NCBI RefSeq assembly: GCF_036370855.1
Contig: NW_026991412.1
Coordinates: 1 to 64,000 of the forward strand
Source: Dromaius novaehollandiae
Lineage: Eukaryota > Chordata > Aves > Casuariiformes > Dromaiidae
DNA length: 64,000 bases
Reading direction: 5' to 3'
Shown here: in pieces, positions 1-64,000 of the stretch
Layout: each line of letters begins with the position of its first letter
Numbering within the stretch: the first letter of the stretch is position 1
Translations under genes and position numbers: made by a program
The notes under the pieces: generated by a model
Told to the model about the DNA's origin: nothing
Databases searched by the model: none
The model's input: only the letters and a program-made list of their open reading frames with translations

Positions 1-3000
1 AGCACAGACCAGAGAAAGGGGGGGGGCTCTACTAAATTGTGTCTATCAGATTTGCTCCTTCTTGGCACTGTGTCTGGAACAGTTGGAGACTTTGCTCCAG
101 AAGGGTTTGTATTGCTGGTACCAGATGCACAGTAGCTCTTGGATTAGGTTGCCAGGACTTCAGCTGGATAAACAAGACATTCTTGGCTCTGCATGCAAGA
201 TGCATTTCTGCAGACCACAGCAGCTAGACAAGGGGTAGTGCAGCAGCTCAGTGTCAAAGTTCCAACTCTAAAGATAAACAAGGGGTGTTTTACCTCCAGC
301 AACATTTCTCTTCCACATTCCTTCAGGAAGATGAGCATCCACTCGCCTGCTGCCCGAGCACAAGTGGGGCTGAAGGACAGCATGCTGCCCAGGACAGCCT
401 TCAGAAAGCCTCTTGCCTGCTCTGAGCAAAAGGATTTGCATGCAACCTGGAGAGAAATGAGAAACAGGAGAAACAACATCAGAAGTCTGCTTCCTCTCTT
501 ACAAGCAAAGGACAAGAAAACTTGAGCAGCTTCTCAGTTCAGCCATTAGCTAATCCTGAAGGTGGCAGGTGCTTTGTATTCCAATTGCACATACAACTTC
601 TTCTTTTGATTTATGAAGCTCATAGAGTTGGAAGGCTCTTCCATGAGGTCGGTTGCTTGCCTACACAACTTATGTTCTTAAAATAACTCTCAAGAGCTGG
701 CAAGCTAATACATGTTAAAATAAAGAGAAAGCCATCGGGCTAAGGAACTTCCCTGCTTTGCTTCAACAGCTCACTTTCCCCAGATGGAGAGTGTTTGGGT
801 GTGGATGGATGAAAACAAACACACAAACTCATAGAAACTTCATGGAGTCTACTTCTTTCCCCAGTGGGAACGCTAGATATTGTTATGCTTCAAAACCCTC
901 TTACTACTTGCTAACAACAGAGGCCCCATTGCTATAGGCCACTCTGAAAGGGGAGAGAAATCTTGGAAGTAAAGAAGAGAAAAGTGATGGGAGCTGAGCC
1001 ACCAGGTAGCCACAGCTCTGGCTTTGGAGTCAGTAACCTTTGCGATTTTGGAAGAGGTCCTCAGCAGCGAATCCACATCTGCGGCCATCAGCTCCTCACA
1101 GAAGTGATTCAGATCCACTTCCCTTGTGTGCATAACCTTGCCTAAAAGAAACACAGGTGGGAAAGGATAGGCACATTTTCTGAAAATGAACCCCCAGTCC
1201 ACAGCCATTGATCAAGGAATCACCAAATGGTGGTAGGGAATTCCACAGGGGTAGTGCAGGACCCTTCTGAACTCTGGGTGCAGCATTTTACGAGTCAGGC
1301 CATCAGATTCTGCTCTATGCCAGTCAGAAAAAACACTCTCCTTCTCCTACAGCAGTTTTCAGACTATACCTATTGTCCTCAACTATGGCTCCTCTTTTTC
1401 TCAGCCCCTCCATCCCATGTGCAAGCACAGGTCACACCTATCCTCTGACTGGGAGGAGGGTCTCCATAGATTCATCAGTGTGGACAGGTGATGCTGACCA
1501 AAGTCCACTCCAGAAGCCCAGGTGTACAACTCCCTTCTAAACAATTTCTCAACTGGGATCATTACTTTGTCTCTACAAAGCTAGAAAGTGCTGTCCTCTA
1601 ATCCTTGGTGCCTGAGAGTGCTGCCCTGAGACAGAAATGTGGGAGGGCTCTCATTCTCCACAGCACCCAGAAGTGCCCCTGAGGCAAGGCTGCTCAGAGA
1701 ACTTTCCCAGGCCTCCCTTGTGCTATGGCCAGGAGGGAAAAGAATGACCAAGGTCTGGATGCAAGAAACCAGCAGTCTGCTGTCCATTACTCTTCTCCTC
1801 TGGCAATGGAGCCCCCTCCCTGCACATTGCCTCTGCTGCCAGACAGGGAAGAGAGGGAAGAGCAGGCGGAAGGAAGTGGGAAGCAATGACTGTTCTTCTC
1901 ACCTTGTGTTGAGAGAAGGCAGCTGATACAGTCGACTGCCCGCTGGCGTGATGTGGCCAGGGAGTCACAGCTGAGAGGCCCCAGCACTCCAATCATGGAG
2001 CCAAACTGCTCAGAAGAGTTTTCTCTCTGGTAGAAATCAAAGAAAGAAGAAAGTTCTCAGGCTGCAGGAGTGGCCCTTCAACCTTCTCCTTCTGACACTG
2101 ACTCCTGACCCACAGCAGGGCATCTGGATCGACAGAAGCTCAGCTTTATCCTCCCAGGAGATTAGCAACCCAGAGCACAGCTCTGAGCAAACCTCCCTGC
2201 CAGGGAAGCAGAAGGGCTTAAGGAGCAATGCTGTCTTGGTGGCAGATGGGTGCTGAGGTTAGGGCAGAGCTGCAGAGAAGACCTGCAGGGCCTCCTGGCT
2301 CGCCAGGGCTGCCCTCGTCTTGGTTCCCCGAGAGACTCCAGCTGAACCCACAAGCACTCCCAAAGAGTTTTGGGAAGAGGGAGTCAATACTCACAGCATC
2401 CTCCAGTCTCTCGGTGTAAGTCTTTAGCAGATGAGTGCAGGCATAAAGGGCCCTCTCTCTCTCCCACTCTTTCCCAGAACGGAGCCAGGCCTCTAGGAGC
2501 TGTTGGAAGACCACAGCTAGATCAGGGCATGCATCGTTTGCACGCACACACACTCACACACACACACACACACTCCTTTACAGTCTCCCACCTTTTCTTC
2601 CCCCAGGAACCACACTAAGGATACATTGGCCTCCATGGGAATTCATCACCGCTGTGAGGTACACAAACACTGAAGGCTTCTTATATTAGTGTATCTGATA
2701 CTTGCACACAGCACTCACTCATCAGCAAAGATTGGGAGTGCCTTGTATCCGTCCACCATGGCCATCTTGGCAACAGCTCCCATTGCAACATGCCCTGACA
2801 ACCAATAACACAACTCCTACAGCCACGACGGGCCATAGTTTTCTCCACCTCCAGGGAAGAATTGCATGCCTTGCACCTGCCTCCAGAGCATCTCCTATTC
2901 TCAGATGATCCCCTAAAGCGTGAGGCCCTCCATCCTTGGCTCTCCTCTTGACAAAAGAGAGTTTCCCTTTCTCCTCTTTGCTACTCACGTGAAAGGTTTC

Positions 3001-6000
3001 CTTGAGCCATGACAAGGTCAGCTCTTCCTCAAGACTTGTCATGAGGCGAGCAAGAGCTTCCAGGGATCGTGTATAGAGAGCCTAAAAGCAAGAGAGAAGG
3101 AGTGGTAGCTGAAATCAGAGAGCCTCAGAACTCAGCCAGAGTCCAGAGCCTCAGCTCTGCCAGCATTCAGTGCATGATAAGGTGCAGCTCTGAACATGCA
3201 GAGCAGCAGAGGGGGATTGACAGCTACCTCTGCATGCTCAGCATCATCTGCTGCCTCCCCTTCTTTTGTCTGCTCAAGGGGAGGAAGGGGAAATAGGCTT
3301 CGGAAGCACTCCTGAAGAAGATGACAGTTTTCCTTCTGGGTCAGAGATGGCTTGATCTTGCTGGCAGAAGACAAAAGAAAGAGTTCAGAAAGGACACTTG
3401 CTACTCTTTGCCAGAGGGGGTCCAGTGGCAGCTAGAGTTCATCTGAAGCTGGAGCCCCAGTTCCCAACACTGCTGTTCCATGAAGAGGGAGCACTTCCGC
3501 CAACTCCCATGGATTCTTGCCCATCAGACTCCCAGCGTACAGAGAGCCGGGAGCTCTCTTCCCCCAGCCAGCCAGCCAGCCAGCCAGCCAGCAGCCTTTC
3601 TGCAGCCCAGACCACTCTCTGTTCCACACTTCTCCAATCTACAGCCTCAGGCCATCTCTCTCCAACACTGGGCTCCAGGATCTGTACCGCATCACATCTT
3701 CCAGGATCATACAAAACGGGGACCATCACCTCACCCCACACCAAAGGCAGCTTCTCACCCCACACTCAGGTCAACTGTGAAGCTTCAATCAGCTCCTCTG
3801 TGACATGCGGAGGAAAACCCAGCACACAGGAGGAAAAGCCCTACCTCAAGTGCTCCACCGCAAGAATTGCCCTGTAGCGAACGGGAGAAGCCACGCAATC
3901 CAGGGGCTCCTGCTTCATGAAGTCCTGCAGGTCACAGAGAGACAGGTACACAGAGGTCAGAGGGCAGGAAAGAAGAGGGCCTTGCCTCAGCAAGAAGAGC
4001 AGATTCTTCTTCCGCGCGTGTGGCTAACACAGACAGCCTCCATGCAGGTTTCTCCCAGAACTGCCGGAAGACCGCAGCTCCAGAGAGGACAGACCCACTG
4101 CTCTTCCCAGGGATCACCCACAAGCTGGCAGCACAAGGGACCCTAGTGTGCTGGTGCCTAGGCCTCGGACACTCCCAAGTTTGCCCAAGGCCTTTCTCAG
4201 CCCACAGAGAACAGTGCCTCTCTGAGGAAACCCCTCTCAGTGCACAAACTCTTCTGCAGGACAGCCTCTCTCATTCCATGTCACTCACCAGCACAAGCTC
4301 CAGCAGCACCCTCTTCGAAGCAAAGCTGAAGTTCTCACAGGTGCCAACGCCTTGAAGGGCGCAGCTGACTTCTGTGACACTCTGGATTAGGGCCAGCTTG
4401 AGTTCTGTGTCCTGAGGACCAGGAAAGAAAAAAAAGGTGACATAGATGAGGAGCTGTTCAAAGGACCAAAGGCCAAAAGATTAACAGGAGGGCCAAAAGA
4501 TCAACCCAAGGGCCAAAGCTACTCTCAAAGTGCTGCGGAGGGAAGAAACTGCATCCTCCAGGAGCCTAGGGGGAAGGGCCTCTGGGTCTTATTTCAGTGG
4601 AAGGAGATCTCTCCTGGGATCCTAGGAAGACATGGACTACCTGGAAGCAGAAAGGAGCTTTCCCCAGCTTCCTACCCAAAAGAGAGCCCCCTGGACTCTG
4701 GCCCAAGGCAGTGGGGAAAGCAAATCTGGAACAACGGAAACTGGAAATGGGAGAAGGGCAAGGAGCAAGGCTCATTCAGGGAGCATTTACTGGGGCTGGG
4801 AAAGTGATGCCCGGTGCCTGCAAGGTGCAAGGAGAAAGAGTGAGAGTCGGGGAAACAGAAAACACTAGTATGCGAAAGACGGCAGCAGTTCAGATTACCG
4901 CCAACACTACGAGGCTGCAGAGACTCATCTGGAGCCCTCTGTCCCCTGCATGGGGAGCAACGGCTAGAACTGGACCTGGGATACTGCTTGTGCTTCGGGT
5001 CTCTGACATCTCAGACAAGTCCCCCAAAACTCAAAGAACACCAGCAATGACACGGGGATATATGTCAAAGGGATAGAGTGGCAGGTTTGGAACTGGAGAT
5101 CCAGGACTCTTGTTGAGAGCAGATCTTTCCAAACAGATGCTCTGTCCCAGTAAGCTCCGGTTCAGAGGAGGGCGGGAGCTAGCTCTAGACTAATTGTCCC
5201 GACACCGAGCATTCACAGCTCCTACCTGAGGGCTGGTTCTGTACTGGCACAGGATGTTCTCTACAATGTCCGTCTCGACCCGGGCAAGAAGCTGCTGCTT
5301 GGGTGCATGGAGTGCTATTTTACTGTAGATGAGCATGACAGCAGCAGCTGTCTTTGCTCCGTTCTCCTTCTGGTGCTCCTGGAAAATTGGGAAAGTCAGG
5401 AGGATTCAGTCGAGCCTCTTCATTTTACCTTAGACTTCCCCTTTGCTTCTAGCTGAGAAACTGCCTCCAAACAGGTACGAGCTTGCCTTTTTCATCCACA
5501 CTTCTCAAAACATTTCACCAAGTAACTCTTCAATGCCTCCGTTAACTCTCTGGGAGAGAGCTGTTCTCCCTCCCACTGTCTCCCTCTCTTGTGTCTAAGA
5601 GCTGGAACTCTTAGACAAAGGAGGGCTGAAGTGCAGAACCTCCTTCCTTGACAGCACCAGGAGTTTGAGCACTGCCCATTGACCATCCCTCATTTCCATT
5701 TGCCAGCTGAACTGAAACCACACCCAACACTGTTCCAATGGCCAGTTGCTGTTTGTTGCCACTGCTGGGGAATTTTGATCCATGACTTTGTAATGGGATC
5801 TGTCCTGAAGACGCCTGAAGCACCAGAACTCCTGGCTACAGGCTTCCGGCAGTTCTTACACAAGCAAAGAAAGCCAAGACAACAGAGAAAACCTGCTTCC
5901 CTTACCTTCTGGAGGGTGAAGACCCTAGGAAGTCTCCTATTCTCCCCAGCAGCAGCAAAGTCGTGGACTGTCTTCAAGGCCAGGTCGAAGTGGCCCTCAG

Positions 6001-9000
6001 CAGAGGATGCTAACACCGAAATCGGTCCCTGCAACACAAGGGAAAGAGTGAGTCTGTTTCCATCCCACACATTCATCCCTTTCAAGCTTTCAAGCATATT
6101 GCCTGAGGGAATCAGCAGGAAAAAGCTCCAAGTCAGGCAACGAGATCCAAGCTGCCGAGGGAAAACTGGAGAGCGCAGGGATAGAGAGCACCCACCTCTC
6201 TCTCAGAAGGTTCCAGACGTCTGACTCTTTCCAAGTAGCTCTGCAGCTGTTCTTCAATGTAGCTGATGTTCTGAGACGCTGCCAGTGCTCCCCCCACAGC
6301 CTTATAGAGGAAATTCTGAAAGAGAAGAGGCCAGCACGAAGAGGTTGCTAACACAGCAACCTGTCATCACTGGAGAAGCGGAACACCCAGCTACCACCCC
6401 ATCTCAAGGACCAAGAGACAGCCAAGGCACCAAGACTACAAAAACAGCCCATTTCTTGGCCCAATCCAGTTACCAGCTCTATACAGAGAATTAAAGGAAG
6501 AAAAAAAAAAAAGACATTATGTAGGGCTGAGAATAGGAAGCAGTGAAAAGCAACTGTATTGAAAAAAACCATGCAGGGAGAGAAGCATCCTGTGGCTCTG
6601 CCACCAAACCTCTCAAGGAAGAAAAGTAAAGACCAAGTCTTAGCAGAGGACCAACCTTCTCCTTGGAAAAGTTTGGATAGTGGGCCATCTGCTGAGTTAA
6701 CTCGCCATTCAGCTTCATATTCCAGGTCTCATTCTTTATGGCTTCCAGAGATGTTCTCAGGAACTATGGAGAAAACAAAAAGTGAAGCAAATGCTTCCTC
6801 AGGTTTTGTCAAGGTCTTTCTCTCATTCCAGTGTAACAAGAAGGTGTCTGGGGACAGCTCACACTACGGATAATCCATCTTCCCTTCCCACCCCTTTAAT
6901 CTGCCCCAGACCCTTCTTCCAATATGCAGCTAAGATCCTTCTGGGTCTCAGGAAACTATAGAGAAAGAGGCAGTGGCGCTTTTAGGACAACAGGCCCAAG
7001 TTCTGGGAGAGGACAGGCTTGCCCAAAACCTCACTGCCAAGACCCCACCTCCCAGCTGTCATAAAAGAACTCTGTACCTGCAGCAGACGGCACTCCCATT
7101 CTGCATAGTCCAGGGAGCTCTCATCTTTTCCTGGGAAACAAGAGGACACAACAGCAGGTCATCTGATTACAGTGAGCCCAAAAGAAGCATCCACACGTCT
7201 CCTTTGGAAGCAAAAAGTCCAGCATTCCCAGGCTACCAGCTCCCAGAATGTACCTGTTCTGTCAGGGCTCAAAGGCAGCTACTCCACCAGCCCCTTTGTG
7301 AGTCCAAATGCATAAGGTATGTCCAAGTCCCATTTGTTCAGGACCATGGAATCAACGCTGGGGAATACTGACTGCTGGTCAAAGCAGCTGTCTATTTCCT
7401 CACAGGAAGAAAAATGAGGCAGAAGGGCCTTTCACAACCAGCTGGAGCTTAGTGCAAGAGAGAACTGCCACTGCCAAGCTGGACTCGACTGGTGACTCTG
7501 AGCTTCCAAGGAGAGGGCAGTGCCACAAAATCTCCTCAAGGGGGAATGTAACCACTCACAAACACTGTCCAAGCAAGGGTGGGAGGATGCTGCCAGAGCC
7601 TGCCATTCTGATGCAATATGCCAGGCTAAAGCCCACACAGGGATCAGATTATTTCAGGAGCATTACTTCTCTCAGCTGTCAGTTCCAGCTCCCTGGAACT
7701 GGGAGGGATGAAGAACAAGACAGCTTTAAGACACTCAAGGGCTCCGTTGTCCTCAGGCACTCTGGGGACCTGCCTTTTCCTGACTTCCCTTCTGTCCTCT
7801 TCAAATCAATCCCCTCCCAGCGGACACTTTACCTTCAAGGTACTGCAGCAAGGAAGGGATCTGGGCCATCCAGGGAATCCCCACCGCTCTGTGAATTGCC
7901 CTGTGAAGGGTCTTCAGCAGCTGCAGGGCAACAGCTCCATGGCCACCTCCTTCATAAGGAGAGCAAGCAAGCACCTGGAAGAGGGAAGGAGAGAGAATTA
8001 GAGCTCCAGCCTGACAGAGGAACAGCAGTTTGTCTGAGAAAGGAGAGGGGCTTTGCAGGTGCCATGGCAGGCAGCACACAGCAGAACTGCTTCTCTTTTT
8101 GCACTGCCTCCCTGAGGAATGGCGCGTCCTTGCTATTCGAGAGGTCCACACTGGGAATGCCCAGGCAGTCCTTGGAGGGCAAGACGCCCTCCAGCAGGCT
8201 TGTTCCTCCCTGAAGGCTGCAAGCATCTGCCTTGAAAGCAGTCTCCATCCGGAGCTCTCCCCCTTTCCCTTGATCAGGAAAACTCTGCCCCGAGGAGTCC
8301 CCAACTACTCACCAGGAGACGTACCAGCAGAGCCTGGGGAGTTGGCAGTTTGGCTGGAAAGAGAAAGAAAGATCCATTTCAGCAGGCCAAGTCCCACACA
8401 AGATGATCACCCGTCCATCCCAGGCAAAGCCTCCAGGACAGGACTGAAGGGGCCTGATAATCTGCTGATAAATTTGCCTTCCCCCAGCTTTTCCCATCTT
8501 AGGGTATCCATGCAATTAACGTGCCGAAAGGAAGGTAACTCCCCAGCACTGCCAGCAAGGAGTCCTCCATTTTACAGGGAGAATGCTGAGAAATGAAGAG
8601 CAAAGCATTTTCTCTGGGAAATGCAGAGGAAATTTCCACAAAGGAAATACAGGGCAGGACTCCCTGTCACCTAGCAGAAGGGCAAGGCTGTGCTGTTCAC
8701 TCTTCCCAGCCTCCCAGTTGGGTCTGCCAGGGGACAGAGACACACACAGGCTCAGCCTGTCCACCTGACAGAGCAGGACAGAATACTTTGGAAGTTTCTC
8801 TCTTTTACCGCGTTCTTGGTAGCACAGGTAATTGGGTTCCTCCTTCTCTTCTGCTCTCTCCTGTCTCTCCACGAGCTCCCTGAGGCAGCGGGAGAGTGGG
8901 ACCAGAGTGCCAGTGTACTGAGCTGGCACTACGAACTGGAGGAGCCTTGGCCATAGGAGCTGCAGAGCAAAATACAGCAATTCAGCACGTCATTCTTTCC

Positions 9001-12000
9001 ATCCCTTCAACTCCTGTTTTCATAGTGGCTGTCCTCTGTGGCTATGACCCAGCCCCTCCACTGTTAGCCCTCTCCAGGGCATTACTTCATGTCTCTCCCA
9101 CCCTTTCTCTTCTGTCTCTCTTCCTTCTAGTCCACTGTCCTAATCCCCACTTGAGCCCATCTCTTGGACTGTTATTCACAAGGCTTCATTTCCCCTCTCC
9201 TCCGACAAGACATTCTGGTAGCCCCGTGCTCGGAAGAGCTTGTCAGCAGGGAGGGGGAGGGCTAGAAGAAGGTATCCTCAAGGCAAGGAGTAGCACCAGG
9301 TGGTGGGATGACTTACTCTTGTCATGCCGCTTGCTGAGACGTCCAGGGTGTCGAGGACATGTAAGCAGAGAGTTTGAAGCGCGGTCTCTGCCACTGCTTC
9401 CCTCTCAGAGAGGTTTCCTGTCTCCTGCAAGACACAAGTTTGAAAACACTCCCATCAGCTACTGTTTCTTCAGGAAGAGGCTAGAGGCTTCAGTAGGAGA
9501 CTTGGCTTTTGCTTTGGGAGCACAGGTCACCTGAGGTAAGACAATGGGAAATCCTATAGTAGGGGTCACATCCTGGACTGCAAGGAAAACTACACAGAAT
9601 GCAGAGAGAGCAACTGCCTGTTTGCAATTACCCAACCAATGGGGGTAAATGGTTTATTCGCGACAGCAGATGCTCAATGGCCCGAGCTCTGTTTTAATGA
9701 CACCAAAGAAACGCTCTTCAGAGGAGTTCTGCTCAATTCCTGCACTGAAAGGAGAGCAGAACTGGCCCCAAGGACAAGGAAGAGGAGGTGGGAGTTCTTG
9801 ACACGCTTCTCCTTACAAATGCAGCCTTCAGGAGCCTCACAGCAAATGACTGAACAAGAGGAAAGGCACAGCCAAAGCCAAGAGTTTCACCAAGTCCTTG
9901 TTCTGGTGAGCCACCTACAAGGAGTCATTCCCTGTGGACCTGGCTGGCAACACCTAAGAAAGAGGTGCCTGTGGTCCCTTTGTTTCCAGAAAGCACACAG
10001 GGCCCGAAAGCACTGCATGGAGGGCAGGACAGGTTCGGACAGAAATATGGAGGACAAGGAAAGAACTGGAGAGCTTTTCCGGCTTGTCCTGCTTAGCCCA
10101 CAATTTCTGTCTTTTGCTGATCATCCATCAGCAGTTCAGAAAAGACTTGTCCACCTTTGTATCCTGCTGAGAATCCACTTTTCCAGGGTGGCTTTTGCCA
10201 AGCAGTTTTGCTGAAATCCCTGGCAGCACCACTGCTCTTTTCTTACTCTCCCACGGTGCCTCCCATTGCATGACATGGTGGTGTAGCACCACAGCCGCAC
10301 CCTTGACAGCAACAGAGAGACCCACGATTCAAGTCGGTTGGGATGCTGATGAGGTCATGGCACCAGGCACTCAAGGGCTGCTGCTTGGGGGCCTCCACAT
10401 TTTCAGGGAAGCTCAGTGCAGTAGTCAGTGGACAAAAGGCACAAAACAAAGCCCCAAATGTCACATTCTCCTCTTACCAGTCTGCTGGTGGCCCGACTGA
10501 ACTCCCTGAAAACATAGGCCACCAGACCCCAGGCCGAACAGTTCTCGACACCAGAGCTGAACAGTTCCTTGATGAAACCAAGAACAGCCACCTTCACCTG
10601 CCGGGGAGGAGATTGCAAACAAGAGTAACCATGAGTCCTTCTCTCCGAAGCAGGAAACATATGCCTAGGCTAGATCCAAACTGCGTAGGGAAATGCTTCC
10701 CCTGTCACTCATCAGGCTACCATCCCTTCCCCAGCCACCTCACCTTACTCCGGTGGTCTCCAAAGACAGTTTCCACTGCCTTGACAACCAGGAACATGTT
10801 CTTTCTTATCGCCATTGCTGAAAGGAAGTACAGGTACGTTGAGGCAGAGCCCACCCCTCCAAAAGAGCACTGTCAAAATGTCTCTGCTTTCTCATGGACA
10901 GCTAGACAGAAAGCACGGGGCCAAAATCTGACTTCAGGGGAAGCAGCAGAAGCCAGGAGCAACAGGGACTGCCTAACACAGAGAGTTAGAAAAATGGGAT
11001 CCACACTGGAATTCACTACTCTTTATGCTCGGAGTGTTACTGAGCTTCAGCTGTCACCCCTGACGAAGCGTGGTCAATAACTATCCAGACAGACTGCTCG
11101 GCTGGGTTTGATACGGTTGGAGACTACAATTCATTTGGGTAACATAGTCTTTGTAAGCACCCACGCATTTCTGTGCTTCACCCTTTCTCAGCTGAAACAT
11201 GGTAAGGTGCTTGGTCCACACTAAGCGTGTGCCCTCCATGGATTTTGACAAGGCTGCTGGCCTGTTTCTCAGAGCTGAAGGGGACTCGGGCGACTTCTGA
11301 GATACCTCAGGGAGTGTGCACTTCTTGTGCACTCAGGTTGCAGAGGAGTCTGGTCTACCACAGCCCAACTGCACAGCCTGAACACCTCCTCTGATCAGGC
11401 TCTGGCAGTTCATGGCTTCAGCTCTTGGCTGTTTCTGCTCGTAGTCCCTCAGCCAAAGTACATCATTCCTCCTATTTTCTTCCTAGTGTTACTTACAGTC
11501 ACAATGAACAAAGAATCTCAGCAGAGACAGGGCTGCTATTCTAGAAGCCTCGTTCTCAGCCTCCAGTTGTGAGTACAGAAACTCCATGGTCTCCTCAGGG
11601 AAGCTTCGGGCTGGAGGGAAGAAATCATGTTCTAGGTTAACAATCAAGCTCTTCTCCCATTGCAGAGCTTTCAAAGAAACCACAGCCAAATTCTGTTTTC
11701 TCCTTACCTAGTAGCAGCATGCAGTGGCACAGCTCTGTTTTATGGCCAATGCGGTGCTTCTTGGTCACATCCGAGAGCTGTGGGAATGAGGTACGTTTTA
11801 GGATCAGTCTTGAGAGAGACTGAAAAGAATCGCTCCTATGAGGTCTTGTCTCCCTGGGGACTCACAGGGAAAGATGCCATTCAAGAAGGACAGTGCTCTG
11901 TCCTCTCAAAGCTGTCTTCTGCTTCCCCCCCACCCTTCTGTCTCTCTGGAACTCTACGGAGAGGCCAGAGATGAGCTTGTGCTCTGACAGACAGCTTCTA

Positions 12001-17138: not shown

Positions 17139-17255
17139 CTCAGAAGGAATTCCTTCCGGACAGCAGTGCTCGCTCCAGCTACCTCCTCACAGGTGAAGGA
17201 GCAAGCCACTGAAGACCCCACCTCCCCAGACGCCCGGGCGGGCAGCCAAGGCCAT

Positions 17256-18479
17256 TGTGACACCCCCGCGTCCCACGCACACCTCACAGACGTCTGCTGA
17301 CCGCTGCGGGCTGGTGTCCCAGGCAGTCCCTCCCTTGGGGGATGGCACCAGAGGTGGGCACGGGCTCAGGAGCAGGCTCCTTGCCCTCCCACAAAGCCAC
17401 TTTTCCCCATCTCGCTCAGTCACTCGTTCGTGGGTCTTACTTCTGGAGTGGTCAGGAGTATGGACGGTATCTGCGCGTCTTCTCACACCTCCTTTTCTGT
17501 TCAATTGGCATTTTCCAGCGACCGGAGATGGAGTGGTCACCTGGGCTGATGGGCTCTTTTCTTTCTTTCTTTTCTGCCATGATGTCGATGCCCTCAGAAA
17601 AAGAGGCTTATGCCATACCCTGGAGATAGAGTATTTCTCAATAGATTACAAGAAGACAACCTTATGTGACTGTAATTTTCATATGACAGTGAATAAAGAT
17701 AAAATTGTAAACATATTTTCTGGAAAATTTCTTTTTCTGTGTATGGAAATACATTTTTGTGCATATTTCCAATCAAATGTAAAAAAAAAAGTAACAGCAT
17801 TCTATTATTGTTGCCTAAAGCTTTTTTCCAGTTAGTGTGCATTTCAATTAATATATTTTAAATGTACAAGTATTACAGATAGCAATGTTAAAATATAAAA
17901 ATTGATTTTTGAGTTACAAGCAACTTCCATTTAGATCCACATATTAAAATGTTTAAAAAATATCAATTAAAGAAATCTTAAATTATTCTTCTCATCAGCC
18001 AACTCCTGGGAATTCATTAGCCAGGAACTTTCAGACATCCCCCCCACCCAAATGTTTAATCACAGAACTGTATTCACAATTCTCATTTTGCTCACATGGT
18101 AAGACAGTGGCTTCTTGTTTATTCACTGTTCCTGTGACAAAAATCTAATATAGCATGTACAAGAACATCAGATACTTAGACTAACAGAAAATCAAACCAC
18201 TAATCATAGTTGTTAATTGCTATTGCTAATAAGCAGTCACAGTGGCGCTGGGGTAGCACGTGTAGTGGAGGCTAAATGCAATAATACCTCGTTTTGATGT
18301 TGTTCTCTTCTACGAAAGCACTTGGAGCAGATTAAGACATCTCTCGTCCTATTTTGTTTATTGAGTGGGCCCTGATACTGGGGAGAAGCTGCCGTGAAGC
18401 AGACCTAGTAGTCAGCTTCCTTAGAGAAGGCGTCTTGTCCTGTATTTGAGGGCTTCCGGTACGTTTTGACAGACAGTAG
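17256..18479. other. 5' flank between MROH exon 1 and CpG island, with AT-rich block 17640-18330
   Basis: 17256-17630 is GC-rich and may hold 5' UTR. 17640-18330 is sharply AT-rich with an A10 run, repeated TTAAA-type words and a plus-strand AATAAA at 17692-17697. Neither repeat ends nor coding potential were recognised, though the sharp base-composition change looks like an insertion. If the island drives MROH, this whole stretch would lie in the first intron. The right copy is at 61039-62262. Confidence 0.5.
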
Positions 18480-18772
18480 TGAGTGACGGGTTTCCTTTGG
18501 ACCCCCCGGGGAGCAGAAAGTTCTGCCGGGAAGGCAAAATGTTTCTTGCGGCTGGGTTGGAAGAAGCTGGCTGCTGATGCAAGGCAGTGACAATTCTGGG
18601 GAGTCGCAGGAAGTTCTGAAAAGACGGTCGTTCCCTTTTCTAGAAGGCTATGCACTTCGGTTCCTAATAGCTGTAGTAATGAAGCCAGGTAAGCGTTCGG
18701 GAGGAGCCCAAGCCACTTTTGCCTAGCGAGTATTTTGCAAGGGGGGCAGGAAAGCGCTGCGCCCTGCTCCTT

Positions 18773-18885
18773 GCTGCCCTCGCGTGTCTGAAAGGCGGCA
18801 CTGCACGCGGGAGGGGGGGCGCGCATGCGCATTGCGTTCCGGCGCGCTCACGGCTGCCCTCGCGTGTCGACAAGGCAGCACTGCA
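18773..18885. repeat. Imperfect 33-bp direct repeat spaced 80 bp, in the CpG island
   Basis: 18773-18805 and 18853-18885 both read GCTGCCCTCGCGTGTC then a variable triplet then AAGGC-GCACTGCA; 29 of 33 bases agree. They flank the NRF1-type palindrome. The right copy is at 62556-62668. Confidence 0.8.
18821..18831. promoter_or_regulatory. NRF1-type palindromic motif GCGCATGCGCA
   Basis: Matches the NRF1 consensus (YGCGCAYGCGCR) in its palindromic core. NRF1 sites are typical of TATA-less CpG-island promoters. It sits between the two members of an 80-bp-spaced repeat (18773-18805 and 18853-18885). Confidence 0.6.
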
Positions 18886-19549: not shown

Positions 19550-19556
19550 CTCGGGC

Positions 19557-19567
19557 AAGATGGCGGC
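19557..19567 (+). promoter_or_regulatory. YY1-type element AAGATGGCGGC
   Basis: Exact match to the YY1 consensus that typically lies just downstream of a start site on the same strand and often contains the start codon. It lies 7 bp after the GC minisatellite and points away from the MROH gene, suggesting a plus-strand start site here. Confidence 0.6.
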
Positions 19568-20001: not shown

Positions 20002-20039
20002 GTAGGTCATGAAGGAGTTTAAAACCTCTGGACCAAATA

Positions 20040-55000: not shown

Positions 55001-58000
55001 ACACTAAGCGTGTGCCCTCCATGGATTTTGACAAGGCTGCTGGCCTGTTTCTCAGAGCTGAAGGGGACTCGGGCGACTTCTGAGATACCTCAGGGAGTGT
55101 GCACTTCTTGTGCACTCAGGTTGCAGAGGAGTCTGGTCTACCACAGCCCAACTGCACAGCCTGAACACCTCCTCTGATCAGGCTCTGGCAGTTCATGGCT
55201 TCAGCTCTTGGCTGTTTCTGCTCGTAGTCCCTCAGCCAAAGTACATCATTCCTCCTATTTTCTTCCTAGTGTTACTTACAGTCACAATGAACAAAGAATC
55301 TCAGCAGAGACAGGGCTGCTATTCTAGAAGCCTCGTTCTCAGCCTCCAGTTGTGAGTACAGAAACTCCATGGTCTCCTCAGGGAAGCTTCGGGCTGGAGG
55401 GAAGAAATCATGTTCTAGGTTAACAATCAAGCTCTTCTCCCATTGCAGAGCTTTCAAAGAAACCACAGCCAAATTCTGTTTTCTCCTTACCTAGTAGCAG
55501 CATGCAGTGGCACAGCTCTGTTTTATGGCCAATGCGGTGCTTCTTGGTCACATCCGAGAGCTGTGGGAATGAGGTACGTTTTAGGATCAGTCTTGAGAGA
55601 GACTGAAAAGAATCGCTCCTATGAGGTCTTGTCTCCCTGGGGACTCACAGGGAAAGATGCCATTCAAGAAGGACAGTGCTCTGTCCTCTCAAAGCTGTCT
55701 TCTGCTTCCCCCCCACCCTTCTGTCTCTCTGGAACTCTACGGAGAGGCCAGAGATGAGCTTGTGCTCTGACAGACAGCTTCTAGATCCTGGAGTCAGAGA
55801 TGAACACCTTCCTGAGCGTCTTGTCAGCTCCACTCTAACGCTCCAGAGGGAGTTTGAGCCTACGACAGGGGACCCACAGCCAAAACAAAGGCTACGCCCT
55901 AGAGGCAAGAGCAACCTTTGAGTTCCAGTCAGTTCCGCAGCAGCAAAAGGCCGTTAGGATACAAGGGCTGGCTGGGATTCCAAGGCTCAGCTTCAGCTCT
56001 CTGGGCTCCAGATTCCTCCTGCTCTCTGCCCGAGCAGGAAACTCCTTTGTGAACTGAGCTGTCCCTGGAACCAGGCAAAGCAGCCCTGGAAAAGTCCGTG
56101 GGCACCTGGCCGGAATGGGGGCCTCAACAGCTGTATGGACCTGACTGCAAGGTATGAGAAAAGCCCAAAGGAGGGAAACTCTGCCCTGCCACCCCATGGG
56201 TCTTTCCTGCCAACCAGAGGCAGACCTGCTAACCCAGAGGGAAGTGCAAGATGTTCAGCCCCTGCTTACCTGGTTGTGCACAACAATGCAGATGATAAAA
56301 ACTCTTTCCCTGGGGATAAAGGGCTCAGTTTTCTCCACAGCTTCCAAGAAATGCCTGAGACGCTACAAGAAAAAGTGAAAACGAGAGGGTGGCTTGTGAG
56401 TGAGAGCAGCTCATTAACACAGGACAGCATGCCTCCACAGTTGGCTGTTCTCTGCCCTGAAAAAACAGGCAGTATCAAGCCTCCCCCTCCATCTGTGTGC
56501 GACTGTCTTGGCTTCTTCTCTAACAGGTTCCCAGCTCCTCCAGGAACTCCCACAGCTCCCTGATCCCAGCACACACTCACCCTGACCCATGCAGCCACAT
56601 CGTATCTTGCCAGACACCTCACCTTGGTCACGTGAAAACCATCTTGGACCTCTTCATACTGGTCCAAGAGCCAGCAGAGCTGGTCGCACACATGCCCTTG
56701 ATACTCTTCCTGATGAAGGAGGAGGCCCATCATAGCTGCCACAGCCCTGATGATGTCCTCCTTGAGCTGCACACAAGGAAGACAGAAGACCTTTGTTTGC
56801 TCCGACTGAAGCTCTGCTCTAGGAGGCAGCATCCCCCAGACACAAACTTCCCCCTTCCCAAAGACGGCCATTTCCCAGCTTCCTCTGGAGGAAACGGTCT
56901 TGCTCGAGAAGAGAGAGAACATTTCCCCTCTTCTAAACCCAAGACCCTTGGGGCTCAAAGGCCACTGGAATTTGGCTGGTTCCCAGCGGCGGTTCTCCAG
57001 ACCCGGCCTGGCCTCACTAGTTCATCGCGAGGCTGCAAAGCGGGACTCCAGGCACACTGCCTGTTGGCCCACAGCATTTCCACACTGTCGAGCTGCAGCA
57101 GGCTCCCAGCTCTAGACAACGCCTCAACGACCTGCTTCCTCCCTGGAAAGCACTTCTCCTGACGTGACACCACTGTTCCCCAGAAAGACAGGTGAACTCC
57201 AGCATTGCAGCTGCTGCTGCTAAAGGGCCACAAAGGCAGCCAGTCTCACCTCCTTCTCTTCACAGTCCAGCCAGTTTCTGACCACGTAGCAGAAGAAAGG
57301 GTATGTCTTCTCACAAAGCTGGGCTTCCCCTATTCGAGGGAAGGAGCACTTTGCCCAGTCTTGGAAGTAAACAGTCACCCCTTTCGACCACGTTTCCAGA
57401 ACTGCATGAAAGATGGGGAGAAAGGTCACTCTGTCAAGTATGTCCCAGAGAGAAGAGTTTGCATTATCACTCCAGCCTGTCTCAAACTGCCGTCCCATGC
57501 TCATCAGCACTTAGCTCCAGAGCAGTTTTGGGTTCTGGGGCAGGCGTGAAATGTTTGAAAATGCCTTCCTTGAAATGCTAAGCTGTTTCTCTCCTCCCTC
57601 TTCTCCTCCTTGTTCCTGCTAGTCCTTTTTCCCCCCTCCAAGATTAGCTGTTGAGTAGTAAAATTAGCTGAGTAGTAAAACTCCAACAACTCCATTCCCT
57701 TCCTGGCCACAGCCATCTCCTGAGCTTTAGACATTCTTTTATGTTGTACAGACTGTTTGGAGCTTTAAAGGGCTGGAGCTCCCTAGAGGTTCAGAACCTG
57801 CAGTAGCAGCTTGAGAGAGAAGAGACTTGGGTGCCGACTGCCGCTCACTAACTTCCCCTTCCCTCTGCATCCCAGTGCAGCCCTGGCACTAGAGGTGGAC
57901 ACTTACCAGCACAGAAGGCTTGCTTCATCCTGCTGCTCTGTACTCGCCCCAGCATGGTGTACATGACATTCCAGGTCATTTCCAGAAACGGGATGCAGCT

Positions 58001-60921
58001 CAGTGCTGCAGAGAAGGGCAGAGGGAAAGCAAACAACCTGCTGTCAGGAAAGCTGTTCAGCAAGGGTGCCCTTCCCCGAGGGATGGGAGCAGGGAAGCCC
58101 TTCAGGGTGGGACTGGAAGCAGAGTGGAGCAGAACTCCGCTAGGCTGGGTCTTCCCACGGTCCCATCCTTAGGGCACTTAGCTCAGGGGACAAAGCCACC
58201 ACTTCCGACTGCTCCCAGGCAGCAAAAGATGTGGAAGCCATAACCCTGTAGCCCTCCCATATTCCAACAACCGAAACCCTTCTCCCGCTGCTCAAAGAAG
58301 CCAGCACCAAAGCATGCAGCCCAAGTTGCCGTACCATAGCTCGTGGCCAGTTTGCTGAGGGTTATAAAAACAAATTCCTGAGGGATATCCTCCACAGGCT
58401 TCAGATGACGCTGTAGCTCTTCCATGACTTGTAGGAAGTGAGAGCGGGCCAGGGAGACCAGGATGTCACTTGCTGCTCTTTGCACGACATCCGTTACACC
58501 CTACAAAAGGACCATGAAGGAAAACCATCAACACAGGAAAGACTGAGGCAGCGGGGCAGATGGAACTAGCCAACGATGGCTGTATGACTTCAGCTCTACA
58601 TTTCCATGTTGAAGGGAAGAGTGAGAGAAACGTCATCTCTCCAGAGAGATCCATCAGTGATAAATATTCCCTGCCTTGTTTGGCTGCCACCGCTTTGCCC
58701 CTTTGTGAAAGGTAAGCAGTTCAGCAGTCCTAAACTTGTTGGTCAAGAAAGAGTTTGACCATTTGCCCTTCTGTGCTACTGCTGCCTCTCCCTTCCCTTT
58801 GTGACAGCGGGAGAATAGGAACAGAGAAGCTCCCAGAAGGCTCCAGCAACGAACACGCTCCACACAGAAGGCCAGATGGAATATTGGGTACAGCAGGGAA
58901 GGGACTGGCACTTCGCCATGCCTCTTCCTCAAAGCAGGATGACTACCTAAGAACGGTAATCCAATGGCCAACCGTGTGGAAGCAGGCTGAGTTTCTGCCT
59001 CCCTGCCTGGAGCCTTTCCCTTCAGCACAGACATGCTTGTTACAGCAGTCGTGGGCCTGCTTGCCTCAGCTGCAGCCAAAGGCCCAGTGCCACTTTACAC
59101 AGGGCAGCTACTTCAGAGGTTGCACCTGCTCAAGAGCTTGGCTGGATATGGCCCTTTCCCTCAAGGAGTCAGCTGCCCTGAGGAAGAGTCTCCCATAGTG
59201 GGATCTGGGGACTGTCATTGGTTCTTAAGGCAAAGGGGAGATCTTTGGTGTCATGCTATAGCTTTCCAGACAACAGGGCTCTAGGCAGGATGCTTTGACT
59301 AGTTTCGAAGAGAACAAGCTTGCCACTCTCAAATCCCTTGAAGCCAATGTTATTAATTGGCTTAACAGATCTCTCTCCAAATGGTCGCCATCTTCCTGGA
59401 GGATTCTCCCCAGTTCCTGGTAAATTTCTACCCGATTACCCTGAGGACAAATCAGAACAGGGAACATCTGAACTTCTTTCTCCTTGATGACCAGGATGTC
59501 GTAGAGCACTTGGTCCGTACAGCCTTCCCAAACGGCATCATGCAGACAGCTCCATTTCGAGGATCTAGTCCTAGAAAGTAGCTGAGTGACCAGCCTCACA
59601 AGGAAGTGTTTCGCCAAACGGAGGATCCACCCATTGCTCTGGTAAGGATCTCCCCAACTTCACAGCTCCCTCCACTCTGCTGGATATTCTGCAACCACAC
59701 AGTTGCTGCCCCAAAGAGCTCATAGCTCCTCTAGACCAAACAAAGTGCCGGGGGCAAAAGGAATACACGGGACAATGGCATTTCCAGACTTCCTTGGTAG
59801 GGCCTGACTCACAGGCTTCCCCCGGCTCCTTAGGGAAGTTCCTGGGGTAACTTTTGTGGATCATACCGGGAGATCTGCCTTCCCTGCACAGATTGGTTCT
59901 CAAATTATGTTTATGTTTCACTGTCTTTGAGAAGTCGACAAAGATCAAAGCATGGTCGGAGCCGCAGACAGCAGCCCAGACAGAGAGGTGGCCGGGGGCT
60001 TAGGGTGGGTGTAGGACTACTGCTGCGCTCAGGAAGTTTTCAGAGAATATGTCGACAAAAGGAGGAAGCCTGGGGAGAGCAAATGACCAGAAGGTTGGCC
60101 GTGTCCTCTACTGCACTCCTGCCTTCTGTGAGAAAGGATGATGTGCAGTAGCATTGTCTCCTAATGACTGGCAAAAATTGCATTTCTGTGATGCGGTGTT
60201 TGCAGGAGAGTGCATTTACCATGTGGCAAGAGCACATCCCCTGGTGCCTGAGCCAGGCACGTTCGGAATCCAAGTGCTTGAATTCAGGCGGAATCCACTG
60301 AAACTGCCACTCCCTTACCTCATTTTCCTGCAGTTGGCACAGAAAGGAGACCACAGAGCCAGGCAAGGTGTTGGTGGCTGCAGGAGGAGACTCTGCATCC
60401 ACGCCTCCATCCTCAGGCTCCTCAGGTCTCACCCGGGAAGCTCTTTTAGTCAAGCGACCTGGAAGGAAACAAGCTGAGGATTACCTGCCCTCAGGTATTA
60501 GCATCAGGCTGGGTCAAACGGCTCCCCAGCCTTCAGGGAAATTCCTCCCCTCACTGCTAACACCAGAAGACCAGCTGGTTTGCAGCAGGTGCCTCTATTA
60601 CCCAGCCAAAGGTGGGCGTATTGGAGCCACCAGATTCAGGCAGGCAGGCCTGACGTCTGGTAGATGGCATCAAAGTTGTCTGCAGTGTGCCGAGGAGACA
60701 CAGCAGAAAAACGACTCTGCCTTGGTTGCTTCCTTTCCCTTCCCTCCGAGGGATTTTGTGGATGAGTTCCTTGGGTGAGAAGTTCACAGCAGGAGGATCC
60801 AGGTCGAGATCAGGCATTTAGAAATCGAGCAGAGGACAGCCCCGAACGGGAGGAGCTCTGTGGGCCTGCCATAAAGAACTGAGGAGTGGCCCTTACCCCA
60901 CCACAATCGTAATCTCTTCAT
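36049..60921 (-). CDS. Complete MROH-family (maestro heat-like repeat) gene, 41 coding exons, 1,623 aa
   Basis: Role: HEAT-repeat (alpha-solenoid) protein of the maestro heat-like repeat family; its biochemical function is poorly known and no enzyme motif is seen. Exons in transcription order: 60897-60921, 60319-60458, 59327-59440, 58335-58500, 57907-58005, 57250-57401, 56623-56766, 56270-56362, 55491-55560, 55280-55393, 54527-54600, 54261-54380, 53100-53207, 52592-52742, 52096-52136, 51616-51757, 50861-50913, 50439-50546, 49979-50098, 49689-49811, 49009-49161, 48072-48194, 47628-47707, 47011-47143, 46772-46864, 46178-46282, 45686-45809, 44821-44924, 44077-44229, 42896-43050, 42471-42633, 41968-42161, 40524-40661, 40216-40327, 39879-40025, 39391-39573, 38146-38304, 37531-37653, 37180-37282, 36706-36771, 36049-36152. 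All introns are GT-AG and all phases agree, giving 4,872 bases with no internal stop. The start (MKRLRLWW) was chosen because its phase-1 GTAAGG donor fits exon 2. Family assignment is from remembered similarity to MROH1/MROH2-type proteins; the exact member is unresolved. No signal peptide or membrane segment is evident. The weakest junction is the donor of exon 3 (GTGGCA). Confidence 0.9.
40662..41967. other. Long MROH intron 32 (1,306 bp)
   Basis: Lies between exons 32 and 33, which join in phase 2. It includes an A/G-rich simple stretch near 41190-41220. No exon-like or transposon-like sequence was recognised. Confidence 0.6.
44077..52136 (-). other. MROH exons 15-29: middle of the solenoid (residues about 524 to 1075)
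   Basis: Fifteen short exons (41-153 bp) coding repeated amphipathic helices. Family-like segments include AKLPTPQALLVRLL followed by SPYEGGGHGAVALQLLKTLH (exons 15-16), NFLYKAVGGALAASQ (exon 19), ISVLASSAEGHFDLALKTVH (exon 20, residues 679-719), PLDCVASPVRYRAILAVEHL (exon 23) and EWERERALYACTHLLKTY (exon 26). Exon 24 ends in an acidic low-complexity run (EGEAADDAEHAE), probably a loop between helices. Exon 26 is taken from the CAG at 46283-46285, because this acceptor keeps phase 0 with exon 25 while the TAG further upstream does not. Confidence 0.8.
46324..46357. repeat. CA microsatellite, right copy
   Basis: Identical in length and interruption pattern to 2541-2574. Confidence 0.95.
52592..60921 (-). 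other. MROH exons 1-14: N-terminal third of the solenoid (residues 1 to about 523)
   Basis: Exon 1 codes only eight full codons (MKRLRLWW) and joins exon 2 to give a basic, then acidic/proline-rich N-terminus (GRLTKRASRVRPEEPEDGG), probably disordered. Helical HEAT-like sequence starts near residue 40. Exon 4 (residues 94-148) has the family-type stretch ILVSLARSHF...VMEELQRHL; exon 6 has VLETWSKGVTVYF; exon 7 (residues 233-280) has AVAAMMGLLLHQEE...LLDQYEEVQD; exon 14 (residues 474-523) has LLWPRLLQFVVPAQYTG. These are remembered as conserved in MROH1/MROH2-type proteins; no alignment was run. Introns here are mostly 100-1,050 bp. The exon 3 to exon 4 join is read as phase 0 with the weak donor at 59326. 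Confidence 0.8.
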
Positions 60922-62603
60922 CTCAGAAGGAATTCCTTCCGGACAGCAGTGCTCGCTCCAGCTACCTCCTCACAGGTGAAGGAGCAAGCCACTGAAGACC
61001 CCACCTCCCCAGACGCCCGGGCGGGCAGCCAAGGCCATTGTGACACCCCCGCGTCCCACGCACACCTCACAGACGTCTGCTGACCGCTGCGGGCTGGTGT
61101 CCCAGGCAGTCCCTCCCTTGGGGGATGGCACCAGAGGTGGGCACGGGCTCAGGAGCAGGCTCCTTGCCCTCCCACAAAGCCACTTTTCCCCATCTCGCTC
61201 AGTCACTCGTTCGTGGGTCTTACTTCTGGAGTGGTCAGGAGTATGGACGGTATCTGCGTGTCTTCTCACACCTCCTTTTCTGTTCAATTGGCATTTTCCA
61301 GCGACCGGAGATGGAGTGGTCACCTGGGCTGATGGGCTCTTTTCTTTCTTTCTTTTCTGCCATGATGTCGATGCCCTCAGAAAAAGAGGCTTATGCCATA
61401 CCCTGGAGATAGAGTATTTCTCAATAGATTACAAGAAGACAACCTTATGTGACTGTAATTTTCATATGACAGTGAATAAAGATAAAATTGTAAACATATT
61501 TTCTGGAAAATTTCTTTTTCTGTGTATGGAAATACATTTTTGTGCATATTTCCAATCAAATGTAAAAAAAAAAGTAACAGCATTCTATTATTGTTGCCTA
61601 AAGCTTTTTTCCAGTTAGTGTGCATTTCAATTAATATATTTTAAATGTACAAGTATTACAGATAGCAATGTTAAAATATAAAAATTGATTTTTGAGTTAC
61701 AAGCAACTTCCATTTAGATCCACATATTAAAATGTTTAAAAAATATCAATTAAAGAAATCTTAAATTATTCTTCTCATCAGCCAACTCCTGGGAATTCAT
61801 TAGCCAGGAACTTTCAGACATCCCCCCCACCCAAATGTTTAATCACAGAACTGTATTCACAATTCTCATTTTGCTCACATGGTAAGACAGTGGCTTCTTG
61901 TTTATTCACTGTTCCTGTGACAAAAATCTAATATAGCATGTACAAGAACATCAGATACTTAGACTAACAGAAAATCAAACCACTAATCATAGTTGTTAAT
62001 TGCTATTGCTAATAAGCAGTCACAGTGGCGCTGGGGTAGCACGTGTAGTGGAGGCTAAATGCAATAATACCTCGTTTTGATGTTGTTCTCTTCTACGAAA
62101 GCACTTGGAGCAGATTAAGACATCTCTCGTCCTATTTTGTTTATTGAGTGGGCCCTGATACTGGGGAGAAGCTGCCGTGAAGCAGACCTAGTAGTCAGCT
62201 TCCTTAGAGAAGGCGTCTTGTCCTGTATTTGAGGGCTTCCGGTACGTTTTGACAGACAGTAGTGAGTGACGGGTTTCCTTTGGACCCCCCGGGGAGCAGA
62301 AAGTTCTGCCGGGAAGGCAAAATGTTTCTTGCGGCTGGGTTGGAAGAAGCTGGCTGCTGATGCAAGGCAGTGACAATTCTGGGGAGTCGCAGGAAGTTCT
62401 GAAAAGACGGTCGTTCCCTTTTCTAGAAGGCTATGCACTTCGGTTCCTAATAGCTGTAGTAATGAAGCCAGGTAAGCGTTCGGGAGGAGCCCAAGCCACT
62501 TTTGCCTAGCGAGTATTTTGCAAGGGGGGCAGGAAAGCGCTGCGCCCTGCTCCTTGCTGCCCTCGCGTGTCTGAAAGGCGGCACTGCACGCGGGAGGGGG
62601 GGC

Positions 62604-62614
62604 GCGCATGCGCA
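62604..62614. promoter_or_regulatory. NRF1-type palindromic motif, right copy
   Basis: Same motif and surroundings as 18821-18831, in the island of the complete gene. Confidence 0.6.
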
Positions 62615-63126
62615 TTGCGTTCCGGCGCGCTCACGGCTGCCCTCGCGTGTCGACAAGGCAGCACTGCAGCCGCCGGCGGCCACCGCTGCGTACGAAGACC
62701 GTTGCGGGCAGCCGGCGCACACGTGCGCGCTGCCGGTCGCCGCGTTGGCCGCTACTCTGCGCTCTCTCGGGGACGGGTAAGCGCAGGGGCCGCGCTCGTG
62801 CCCCCTGCCCGGTGCTCACGGACCGGGAGCGCTTTTCCCGAGAGGGCTTTTCCTTCTCGGTGCTTCCTGGGGGCGCGGGGACGGGCAGTGCTGTCTCGGA
62901 GCTGCTCCGCGGCGCTCTCTCCCCGGGGCAGCCCCAGCGCCTGCTCGCTGATGCCCGCCGCTCTCTCGGGCGCGGGCAGAGCAGCCTCGGGGCGCTCGCT
63001 GCTCGGCCTGAGCGCCGGGGTGGCGCGGCGGGCTGCGGTTAGCGCGCGGGAGCCGGCCGGCTGCAGCGCGGCGCTGCGACCACGCGAGGGTGGGGCCATT
63101 GCGGGTCTGGCCTGCCTCGCGCTCCG

Positions 63127-63350
63127 CTCCCCCGCCCCTCGCGCTCCCCCCGCCCCTCTCGCGCTCCCCCCGCCCCTCTCGCGCTCCCCCCGCCCCTCTC
63201 GCGCTCCCCCCGCCCCTCGCGCTCCCCCGCCCCTCGCGCTCCCCCCGCCCCTCGCGCTCCCCCCGCCCCTCGCGCTCCCCCCGCCCCTCTCGCGCTCCCC
63301 CCGCCCCTCTCGCGCTCCCCCCGCCCCTCGCGCTCCCCCCGCCCCTCGCG
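63127..63350. repeat. GC-rich minisatellite, 12 units of 17/18/20 bp
   Basis: Same array as 19344-19549 but with unit lengths 17-20-20-20-18-17-18-18-20-20-18-18, total 224 bp. Aligned with the left copy this needs more than a single unit gain: unit 5 is 18 instead of 20 bp and an extra 20-bp unit stands before the last two. Confidence 0.95.
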
Positions 63351-63357
63351 CTCGGGC

Positions 63358-63368
63358 AAGATGGCGGC
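63358..63368 (+). promoter_or_regulatory. YY1-type element, right copy
   Basis: Same motif as 19557-19567, after the longer minisatellite allele. Confidence 0.6.
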
Positions 63369-63802
63369 GAGCAGGGCGGGTGTTTTGGCTGGACGGCGGC
63401 GGGCGAGGGCAGAGGCGCGCTGGAGTCGAGCATGTGGGGGCCGCGGTGAGGCGAGGTGAGGCGAGCGTGTGCCTTCGGGTGGCCGCGGGTGTCGGGCTGT
63501 GTCCTGCCAGCCGGGGCCGTCGCTGCGTGGAGGCGGCGGGGCGGGGGGGGGGAGTCGGGCCGGGGGCCGCGCGGCGCCGGGTCTGCGCGGCGCCGGGTCT
63601 GCCGGAGCGCGGCTCTGACTCTCCCTTTTGCGTGTGTCGCCTGTAGGGCCCCGGTTCCTCCCCAGCGCGGGCCGGGGCGTGCGCTCGCCCCTGCGGACGC
63701 AGCCTGGAGGAGCGGGGGGGCAGGCGGGCCCCGGAGCGGGATTAGGGCACGGCGTCGGCGGGAGGACGGCTCCTGATGCAATAGGCGTGCCCGAGAGTGC
63801 TG
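63361..63802 (+). CDS. Possible divergent plus-strand transcript, right copy (weak)
   Basis: Identical counterpart of 19560-20001: exons 63361-63445 and 63647-63802. Any continuation lies outside the window to the right, or in a spacer like 20.7-35 kb if the array continues. Confidence 0.25.
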
Positions 63803-64000
63803 GTAGGTCATGAAGGAGTTTAAAACCTCTGGACCAAATAGGGTTAAGGTCAACTTGAGTTAGATACGATTAGTGCAGCCCCAAGTTATTTACTTGAGAA
63901 TTGTGGCTAGGCAAGCAAGAAGATGGGTAGAAGACAGATGCTCCTGGACACCCTGAGGCCTCCCCTGCCCCCAGGCACAGACTGTGGGTACCAGCCGACC

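Follow-up and report, generated by a model that had tools for sequence, protein, structure and literature searches.

Gene Content and Repeat Structure of the Window

The window, by which we mean the whole 64,000-nucleotide stretch of emu (Dromaius novaehollandiae) DNA analysed here, is the initial 64 kb of the 227-kb contig C172, and contains one complete and one truncated copy of an MROH2B-like gene together with the following features (positions are those of the window; strand is given for the genes):

1..20199: left repeat copy, with 28 of the 40 modelled exons and most of the island; the 3′ exons of its gene lie beyond the contig edge
294..17185, minus strand: neighbouring gene copy, truncated by the contig edge (28/40 modelled exons; exon span shifted by 43783)
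18242..20671: apparently hybrid GC-rich/CpG-island element, a subtelomeric repeat family member at the junction of gene side and spacer side
19333..19552: GC-rich minisatellite with an 18-20-bp unit, within the inferred crossover interval
19920..20335: 416-bp segment, common to the array island, the C2 centromere-side island and the C181 array start
20672..35600: AT-rich spacer within the unit, its right limit being approximate
36016..60968, minus strand: complete MROH2B-like gene, 40 modelled exons and 1,686 codons, one exon junction reading as a stop and the first and last exons being weak
43784..64000: right repeat copy, oriented as the left copy
62025..64000: island element, second copy, incomplete because the window ends (start placed 43783 after 18242)
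63116..63353: minisatellite of the next unit, longer by 18 bp

The earlier note had described bases 1-20199 as recurring at 43784-64000 in the same orientation and reaching both window edges, and self-BLAST returned exactly this as the single long direct match (20,217 columns, 99.906% identity), the remaining matches, among those listed, being minisatellite. The two copies differ by one SNP (C/T at 17476/61259) and by minisatellite length changes totalling 18 bases (19436-19488 / 63219-63287), such that the repeat period is 43,783 ahead of the minisatellite and 43,801 past it. The following 10 kb of C172 (L031) matches window positions 20200-30201 at 99.95%, except for 250 bases reading N.

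The repeat unit does carry an MROH gene, as had been proposed. The modelled protein, searched against Pfam as the gene model minus its one junction stop, contains four domains in the order expected of an MROH2B-like HEAT protein, namely HEAT_MROH2B_1st, HEAT_Maestro_2, HEAT_Maestro and HEAT_MROH2B_C (E-values of 5.5e-16, 1.8e-158, 6.6e-49 and 1.4e-31, respectively), all exceeding the curated cut-offs. The emu protein thus has all four domains of the MROH2B family (Pfam PF23221, PF23210, PF21047, PF23227), in order, but differs from that family in that its gene copies are amplified near chromosome ends. The proposed minus-strand, multi-exon organization also stands, although our model gives 40 exons rather than 41, a count that is approximate because the model is weak at its first and last exons and a stop was read at one exon junction. 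A prokaryote genome collection yielded no relative, which is unsurprising given that this is a vertebrate gene. According to the earlier note, birds have numerous MROH genes; no title on this subject appeared among the literature matches listed.

Genuine CpG islands lie at about 18.75-20.0 kb and at 62.5-63.75 kb, one per unit. The gene does not, however, have an island purely of its own, as the element is a member of a wider subtelomeric repeat with 665 first-look candidates genome-wide, 40 of which were scored. A motif that we take to be ZNF143-like is present in L034 and L044, and was not found in the window.

Tandem Arrays on Two Contigs

The window had been read as part of a tandem array of whole units, and genome searches extended that array well beyond the window. 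C172 carries at least five gene copies, the first truncated by the contig edge, and a second contig, C181, carries at least seven. The four C172 and seven C181 spacers recur at intervals of 43,667-43,943 bp, giving units of 43.7-43.9 kb, and both contigs thus contain more than the three head-to-tail units that define a tandem gene array. These copy counts are floors, because only the spacer search scored all of its candidates (19/19), the others scoring 40 each: of 81 for the gene body, 60 for the downstream block, 49 for the gene 3′ end and 84 in an additional gene search. The order within a unit is island, AT-rich spacer, gene, island, with head-to-tail islands flanking one full MROH2B-like gene. 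Over approximately 3.5 kb of spacer there are no substitutions among the four C172 copies, 0-4 among the seven C181 copies, and 3-6 between the two arrays.

Gene Copies Near Chromosome Ends

Among the candidates scored, nine gene copies whose gene-body identity is 96% or higher lie 17-472 kb from the end of a contig longer than 1 Mb, on C1 (both ends), C2, C3, C5, C6, C16, C206, and C207, and all nine have the same orientation relative to that end. C1, C2, and C6 each terminate on the right in a TTAGGG array; no telomeric sequence is present in the initial bases read of C1, C3, C16, and C206, and another end reads N. Because the copies occur near the ends of several large contigs, in one orientation, with TTAGGG at three of these ends, the gene unit is, on sequence evidence, a subtelomeric duplicon family. 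Three further copies of at least 96% identity (C249, C132, and C188) were excluded from the nine since their contigs are shorter than 1 Mb; judged by the nearest contig end, C249 fits the orientation rule and C132 and C188 do not, but the end of a contig of this size is not necessarily that of a chromosome. An interstitial copy at C1:180.3 Mb obeys the rule and was likewise excluded from the counts, being 39 Mb from the end.

Along C5, the match to the array improves toward the end side, from 91% identity in the island and 94-96% in the spacer to 98.4% at 35.3-36.2 kb, 99% at the gene 3′ end and about 100% in the gene body. The rise is uneven, with differences of 0.7-8.9% in 400-bp steps and a 280-base piece at 86%. 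BLAST identities were used for C5, C249, C177, and the C1:180M copy, where large substitution counts include non-homologous flanks.

The distribution of these copies bears directly on a reading that follows from the ampliconic locus suggested in the earlier note, namely a sex-chromosome locus with many copies kept for germline dosage: high identity and tandem geometry fit that reading, both C172 and C181, as unplaced contigs, could be sex-chromosomal, and a passage of a penguin paper names spermatogenesis for MROH2B (PMC11371425), but gene-body copies of 96-100% identity at the ends of at least six large contigs (C1, C2, C3, C5, C6, C16), which cannot all be sex chromosomes, form a subtelomeric pattern of fixed orientation and make it very improbable.

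Origin of the Array

The island within the array was compared with the islands on either side of the unit on C2, the one single-copy locus read on both sides. The gene-side sequence (16000-18753) matches the C2 right island at 98.6-98.8% and does not match the C2 left island. By contrast, the 416-bp segment (99.3%) and the start of the spacer (98.7%) match C2 left and do not match C2 right, and the intervening 20336-20671 is 98.5% identical to the C2 left island vs. 89.3% to C2 right. The 416-bp segment was also not found in the telomere-side islands of C2 and C249. The internal junction thus combines left and right flanking repeats, and the array island looks like a hybrid of the pair that flanks a single-copy unit, the product to be expected from unequal crossing-over.

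We consider it probable, at roughly 85%, that this is a subtelomeric segmental-duplication unit with an MROH2B-like gene, arrayed by unequal crossing-over between its flanking islands. The array would have grown by non-allelic homologous recombination, through exchange between the telomere-side island of one unit and the centromere-side island of another, the break falling in the GC-rich minisatellite or right next to it; recurrent exchange, both inside the array and from one chromosome end to another, would keep the copies alike. Several observations count against parts of this explanation: the last gene on C172 is without a normal island, C132 and C188 depart from the orientation rule, identity on C5 rises unevenly, and both arrays are on unplaced contigs, so that the arrays themselves may or may not be at a chromosome end.

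Compatible with this explanation, and only a little short of even odds, is that C172 and C181 represent alleles of a single array, with five and seven genes. The last gene copies of the two contigs score alike (3543 bits each in the gene-body search, and 5542 vs. 5546 in the further gene search), a common downstream block follows the last gene at 33.2 and 34.6 kb, and the divergence of 3-6 substitutions in 3.5 kb between their units would suit alleles. The shared flank is no proof of allelism, however, because C188, C206, and C207 also have the downstream block after their gene.

An assembly artefact, either assembler repetition of one real unit or false haplotype duplication, appears unlikely. 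It could account for the near identity of the C172 units and for several unplaced contigs with round sizes (e.g., 260000, 347500), and the assembly interrupts the array, since C172 begins within a gene and the 8.9-kb contig C224 carries another 3′ end at 100% identity. Yet length and sequence vary among units and between C172 and C181, and other ends carry copies with their own flanks.

Coding Potential of Outlying Copies

All 40 modelled exons are open in two outlying gene copies; the interstitial gene copy is a pseudogene. The C249 copy has 40 exons without a stop and no indels in 4902 exon bases vs. 52 in 19693 intron bases, where 12.9 indels and 6.2 stops would be expected if it were unconstrained. 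These counts favour coding constraint, but the constraint looks weak, with dN/dS values of 0.67 (0.46-1.14) for C249 and 0.37 (0.17-1.34) for C2. Divergence per site in C249 is greater in exons (0.037) than in introns (0.027), and positive selection was considered on this account; it is not claimed, because dN/dS falls below 1 and its limits are wide. Since outlying copies retain their reading frames, we further infer that the copies may encode working HEAT-repeat scaffold proteins.

Comparison with Known Systems and Implications

Bird and mammal subtelomeres are described, in parts of PMC13431229, as biased to interchromosomal duplications, and the emu unit resembles the vertebrate subtelomeric duplications of that account in having copies at several chromosome ends, but differs in that the full gene also occurs in local head-to-tail arrays. 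The main text of PMC13431229 contains neither “MROH” nor “maestro”. Human macrosatellites, D4Z4 at 4q35 among them (PMC3018141), are likewise large tandem units near a chromosome end; the emu unit differs in being approximately 44 kb long, with a spliced gene of about 40 exons. The number of D4Z4 units is variable, and the units are a few kb in size. No report of such a gene array was found in titles or abstract openings, the broader queries being covered by the top matches listed.

The finding connects a tandem array that carries a gene with one particular junction, where the island is apparently a hybrid of the pair on either side of a single-copy unit, and the crossover model is therefore checkable in reads and in other individuals. 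Chromosome ends are also where assemblies tend to break. More speculatively, and we consider this less likely than not, the high-copy subtelomeric CpG-island repeat may serve as both a crossover seed and a portable promoter, with which chromosome ends would disperse and multiply an intact MROH gene, some 40 exons long, making it a fast-changing, end-linked family whose copy number would vary individually. The array and its outlying copies suggest that a large multi-exon gene can remain in frame while spreading over chromosome ends.

Extent of the array and the gene that it carries

The head-to-tail repeat claimed in the earlier note is real, and the array proved larger than was claimed. Self-comparison of the window showed a single long direct repeat, in which 1-20199 recurs at 43784-64000; its copies differ by one substitution and 18 bases of minisatellite length. 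A search of the genome (1.468 Gb in 271 contigs) placed further units on the window's own contig, C172 (227,340 bases, of which the window is bases 1-64000), and on C181. In window coordinates, the unit of about 44 kb comprises:

18242-20671, GC-rich CpG-island element (the island), including a minisatellite (19333-19552, 18-20-bp unit) and a 416-bp segment
20672-35600, AT-rich spacer
36016-60968, minus strand, MROH2B-like HEAT-repeat gene

A spacer query (24000-25500) identified four units on C172, with start-to-start distances of 43,801, 43,737 and 43,851 bases, and seven on C181 (43,824, 43,943, 43,684, 43,667, 43,905 and 43,684 bases). The gene-body and 5' queries agree on at least five copies on C172 and at least seven on C181, and the 3' query gives at least four and seven, the first C172 gene being truncated at the contig edge; these counts are lower bounds, since the best 40 of 81 (gene-body), 84 (5') and 49 (3') candidates were scored. 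A further gene 3' end, at 100% identity, lies on the 8.9-kb contig C224. Within the spacer, minus-strand frames at 30794-31800 resemble a CR1 LINE fragment. Three fragments of window 16977-18200 (93-94%) are present at C29:3586442, 3777635 and 3645235, the third being shorter; in the scored 40 of 84 candidates, the rest of the 5' query has no counterpart at these places.

A related gene at C181:840001-870000 (79% in the gene-body query) is collinear with window 35609-61365 in blocks of 73-80%. Keeping exons that have splice sites at their borders and an open frame in each of the two genes, we obtained a chain of 40 exons, the modelled protein of which contains PF23221, PF23210, PF21047 and PF23227, in order. 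The model is inexact, as there is a stop at one exon junction and the first and last exons are weak. The dN/dS between the two genes is 0.456 (bootstrap 0.39-0.54). The related gene is itself tandem, in three units 36,073 and 36,025 bases apart; this array (840001-870000, 884022, 920047) is inverted relative to the first, and further copies of the related gene are found on C14, C54, C152, C194, C249 and C270 among the 40 of 81 candidates scored.

Copies near chromosome ends

Among the best 40 of 81 gene-body candidates, nine matches of at least 96% lie on contigs longer than 1 Mb:

Minus strand: C1:189270; C3:205635; C5:458360; C16:17163; C206:258454
Plus strand: C1:219183911; C2:169794205; C6:49661293; C207:4822706

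Their distance to a contig end is 17-472 kb, and in 9/9 the gene points away from the nearest end. Three copies on smaller contigs were not counted among the nine; judged by the nearest contig end, C249 obeys this orientation rule, and C132 and C188 break it. TTAGGG repeats form the right ends of C1, C2 and C6 and are absent from the first bases read at the starts of C1, C3, C16 and C206; one further end read is N. The stretch matching window 15001-15723 (5' query) is absent from the C16, C206 and C207 copies. A block downstream of the last C172 gene recurs at 98-99% in at least 38 other full-length places and one split place (best 40 of 60 candidates), and it follows the gene by 32.7-34.6 kb on C172, C181, C188, C206 and C207.

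The earlier note had also given the gene its own CpG island, but related copies occur near the ends of many other contigs. Among the best 40 of 665 first-look candidates for an island query (window 19560-20660), there are, in addition to the islands of the units, copies of 79-81% close to the ends of C12, C14, C19, C20, C22, C24, C25, C30 and C37 (the last spanning 852 of 1101 query bases), and shorter matches of 98-99% over 352-360 bases near those of C2, C12, C13 and C14. At least 13 places, on C12, C13, C14, C19, C20, C22, C24, C25, C30 and C37, are 65-375 kb from an end, on the plus strand at contig ends and the minus strand at contig starts; one place at C1:84.5 Mb and two on C23, also among these 40, are far from any end. 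The island thus belongs to a subtelomeric repeat rather than to the MROH gene alone. The start of C181 (1-10000) contains sequence recurring after 7.78 kb; between the two occurrences sits an inverted island element (96%) without the 416-bp segment. What we take to be a ZNF143/THAP11-like motif occurs twice, 122 bases apart, in the C181 start (6016, 6138) and the first bases of C1 (39, 161); the C181 pair sits within a 61-bp tandem repeat.

Coding state of the copies

In the C249 copy (96.55% identity along the alignment) and the C2 copy (98.97%), neither of which played a part in model building, all 40 exons are free of indels, splice-site losses and, for codons lying within one exon, stops. 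The C249 exons carry 0 indels in 4902 bases versus 52 in 19693 intron bases (12.9 expected in exons, P ~2e-6), and 0 stops versus 6.2 expected under an assumed transition weighting (P ~0.002). However, two C249 values run counter to a simple constraint reading: substitutions are more frequent in exons (0.037) than in introns (0.027), and dN/dS is 0.67 (0.46-1.14). The C2 comparison has low power (2.7 indels expected, P 0.07; dN/dS 0.37, 0.17-1.34). The interstitial copy at C1:180.3 Mb is a pseudogene: 19/40 exons are missing as a single block, and there are also a frameshift, a lost acceptor and stop codons in four exons.

Probable homogenisation and a hybrid island

No substitutions separate the spacers of C172 from one another; those of C181 differ among themselves by 0-4, and spacers of the two contigs by 3-6. 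The identity of the C5 copy to the array is greater toward the contig end: the inner-side island is at 91%, the spacer at 94-96%, 27.4-35.0 kb at 95%, a piece of 280 bases at 86%, 35.3-36.2 kb at 98.4%, the 3' end of the gene at 99% and the gene body at ~100%. In 400-base steps the rise is uneven. This gradient would fit exchange between chromosome ends.

On C2, a single-copy unit was read on both sides. Its centromere-side island (C2-left) matches window 18754-20671 and continues into the spacer, without the gene side; its telomere-side island (C2-right) has the gene side, without the 416-bp segment or continuation into the spacer. The array island combines gene side, 416-bp segment and spacer.

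Identity of window segments to the two C2 islands
Window segment; C2-left; C2-right
16000-18240; none; 98.8%
18754-19330; 96.0%; 99.0%
19553-19919; 97.8%; 98.1%
19920-20335; 99.3%; none
20336-20671; 98.5%; 89.3%
20672-21490; 98.7%; none

Judged by these identities, the switch from C2-right to C2-left is located in 18754-19919, most likely after 19330, at the site of the minisatellite. Such a hybrid is the expected product of unequal crossing-over between the flanking islands. The telomere-side island of C249 agrees with C2-right, and a left-type island at C181:104,672 starts the C181 array. Where an island was expected at the last C172 gene (C172:194500-196500), there is no match to window 1-43783; an 88% island lies ~13 kb beyond, unlike the array plan. 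Islands of 87-89% are similarly displaced, by 12-13 kb, on C181, C188, C206 and C207.

In the portion of the open-access literature that was covered, no comparable MROH array was found. Overall, the array is best classed as a subtelomeric duplicon that carries a gene and was probably amplified by recombination between flanking islands.
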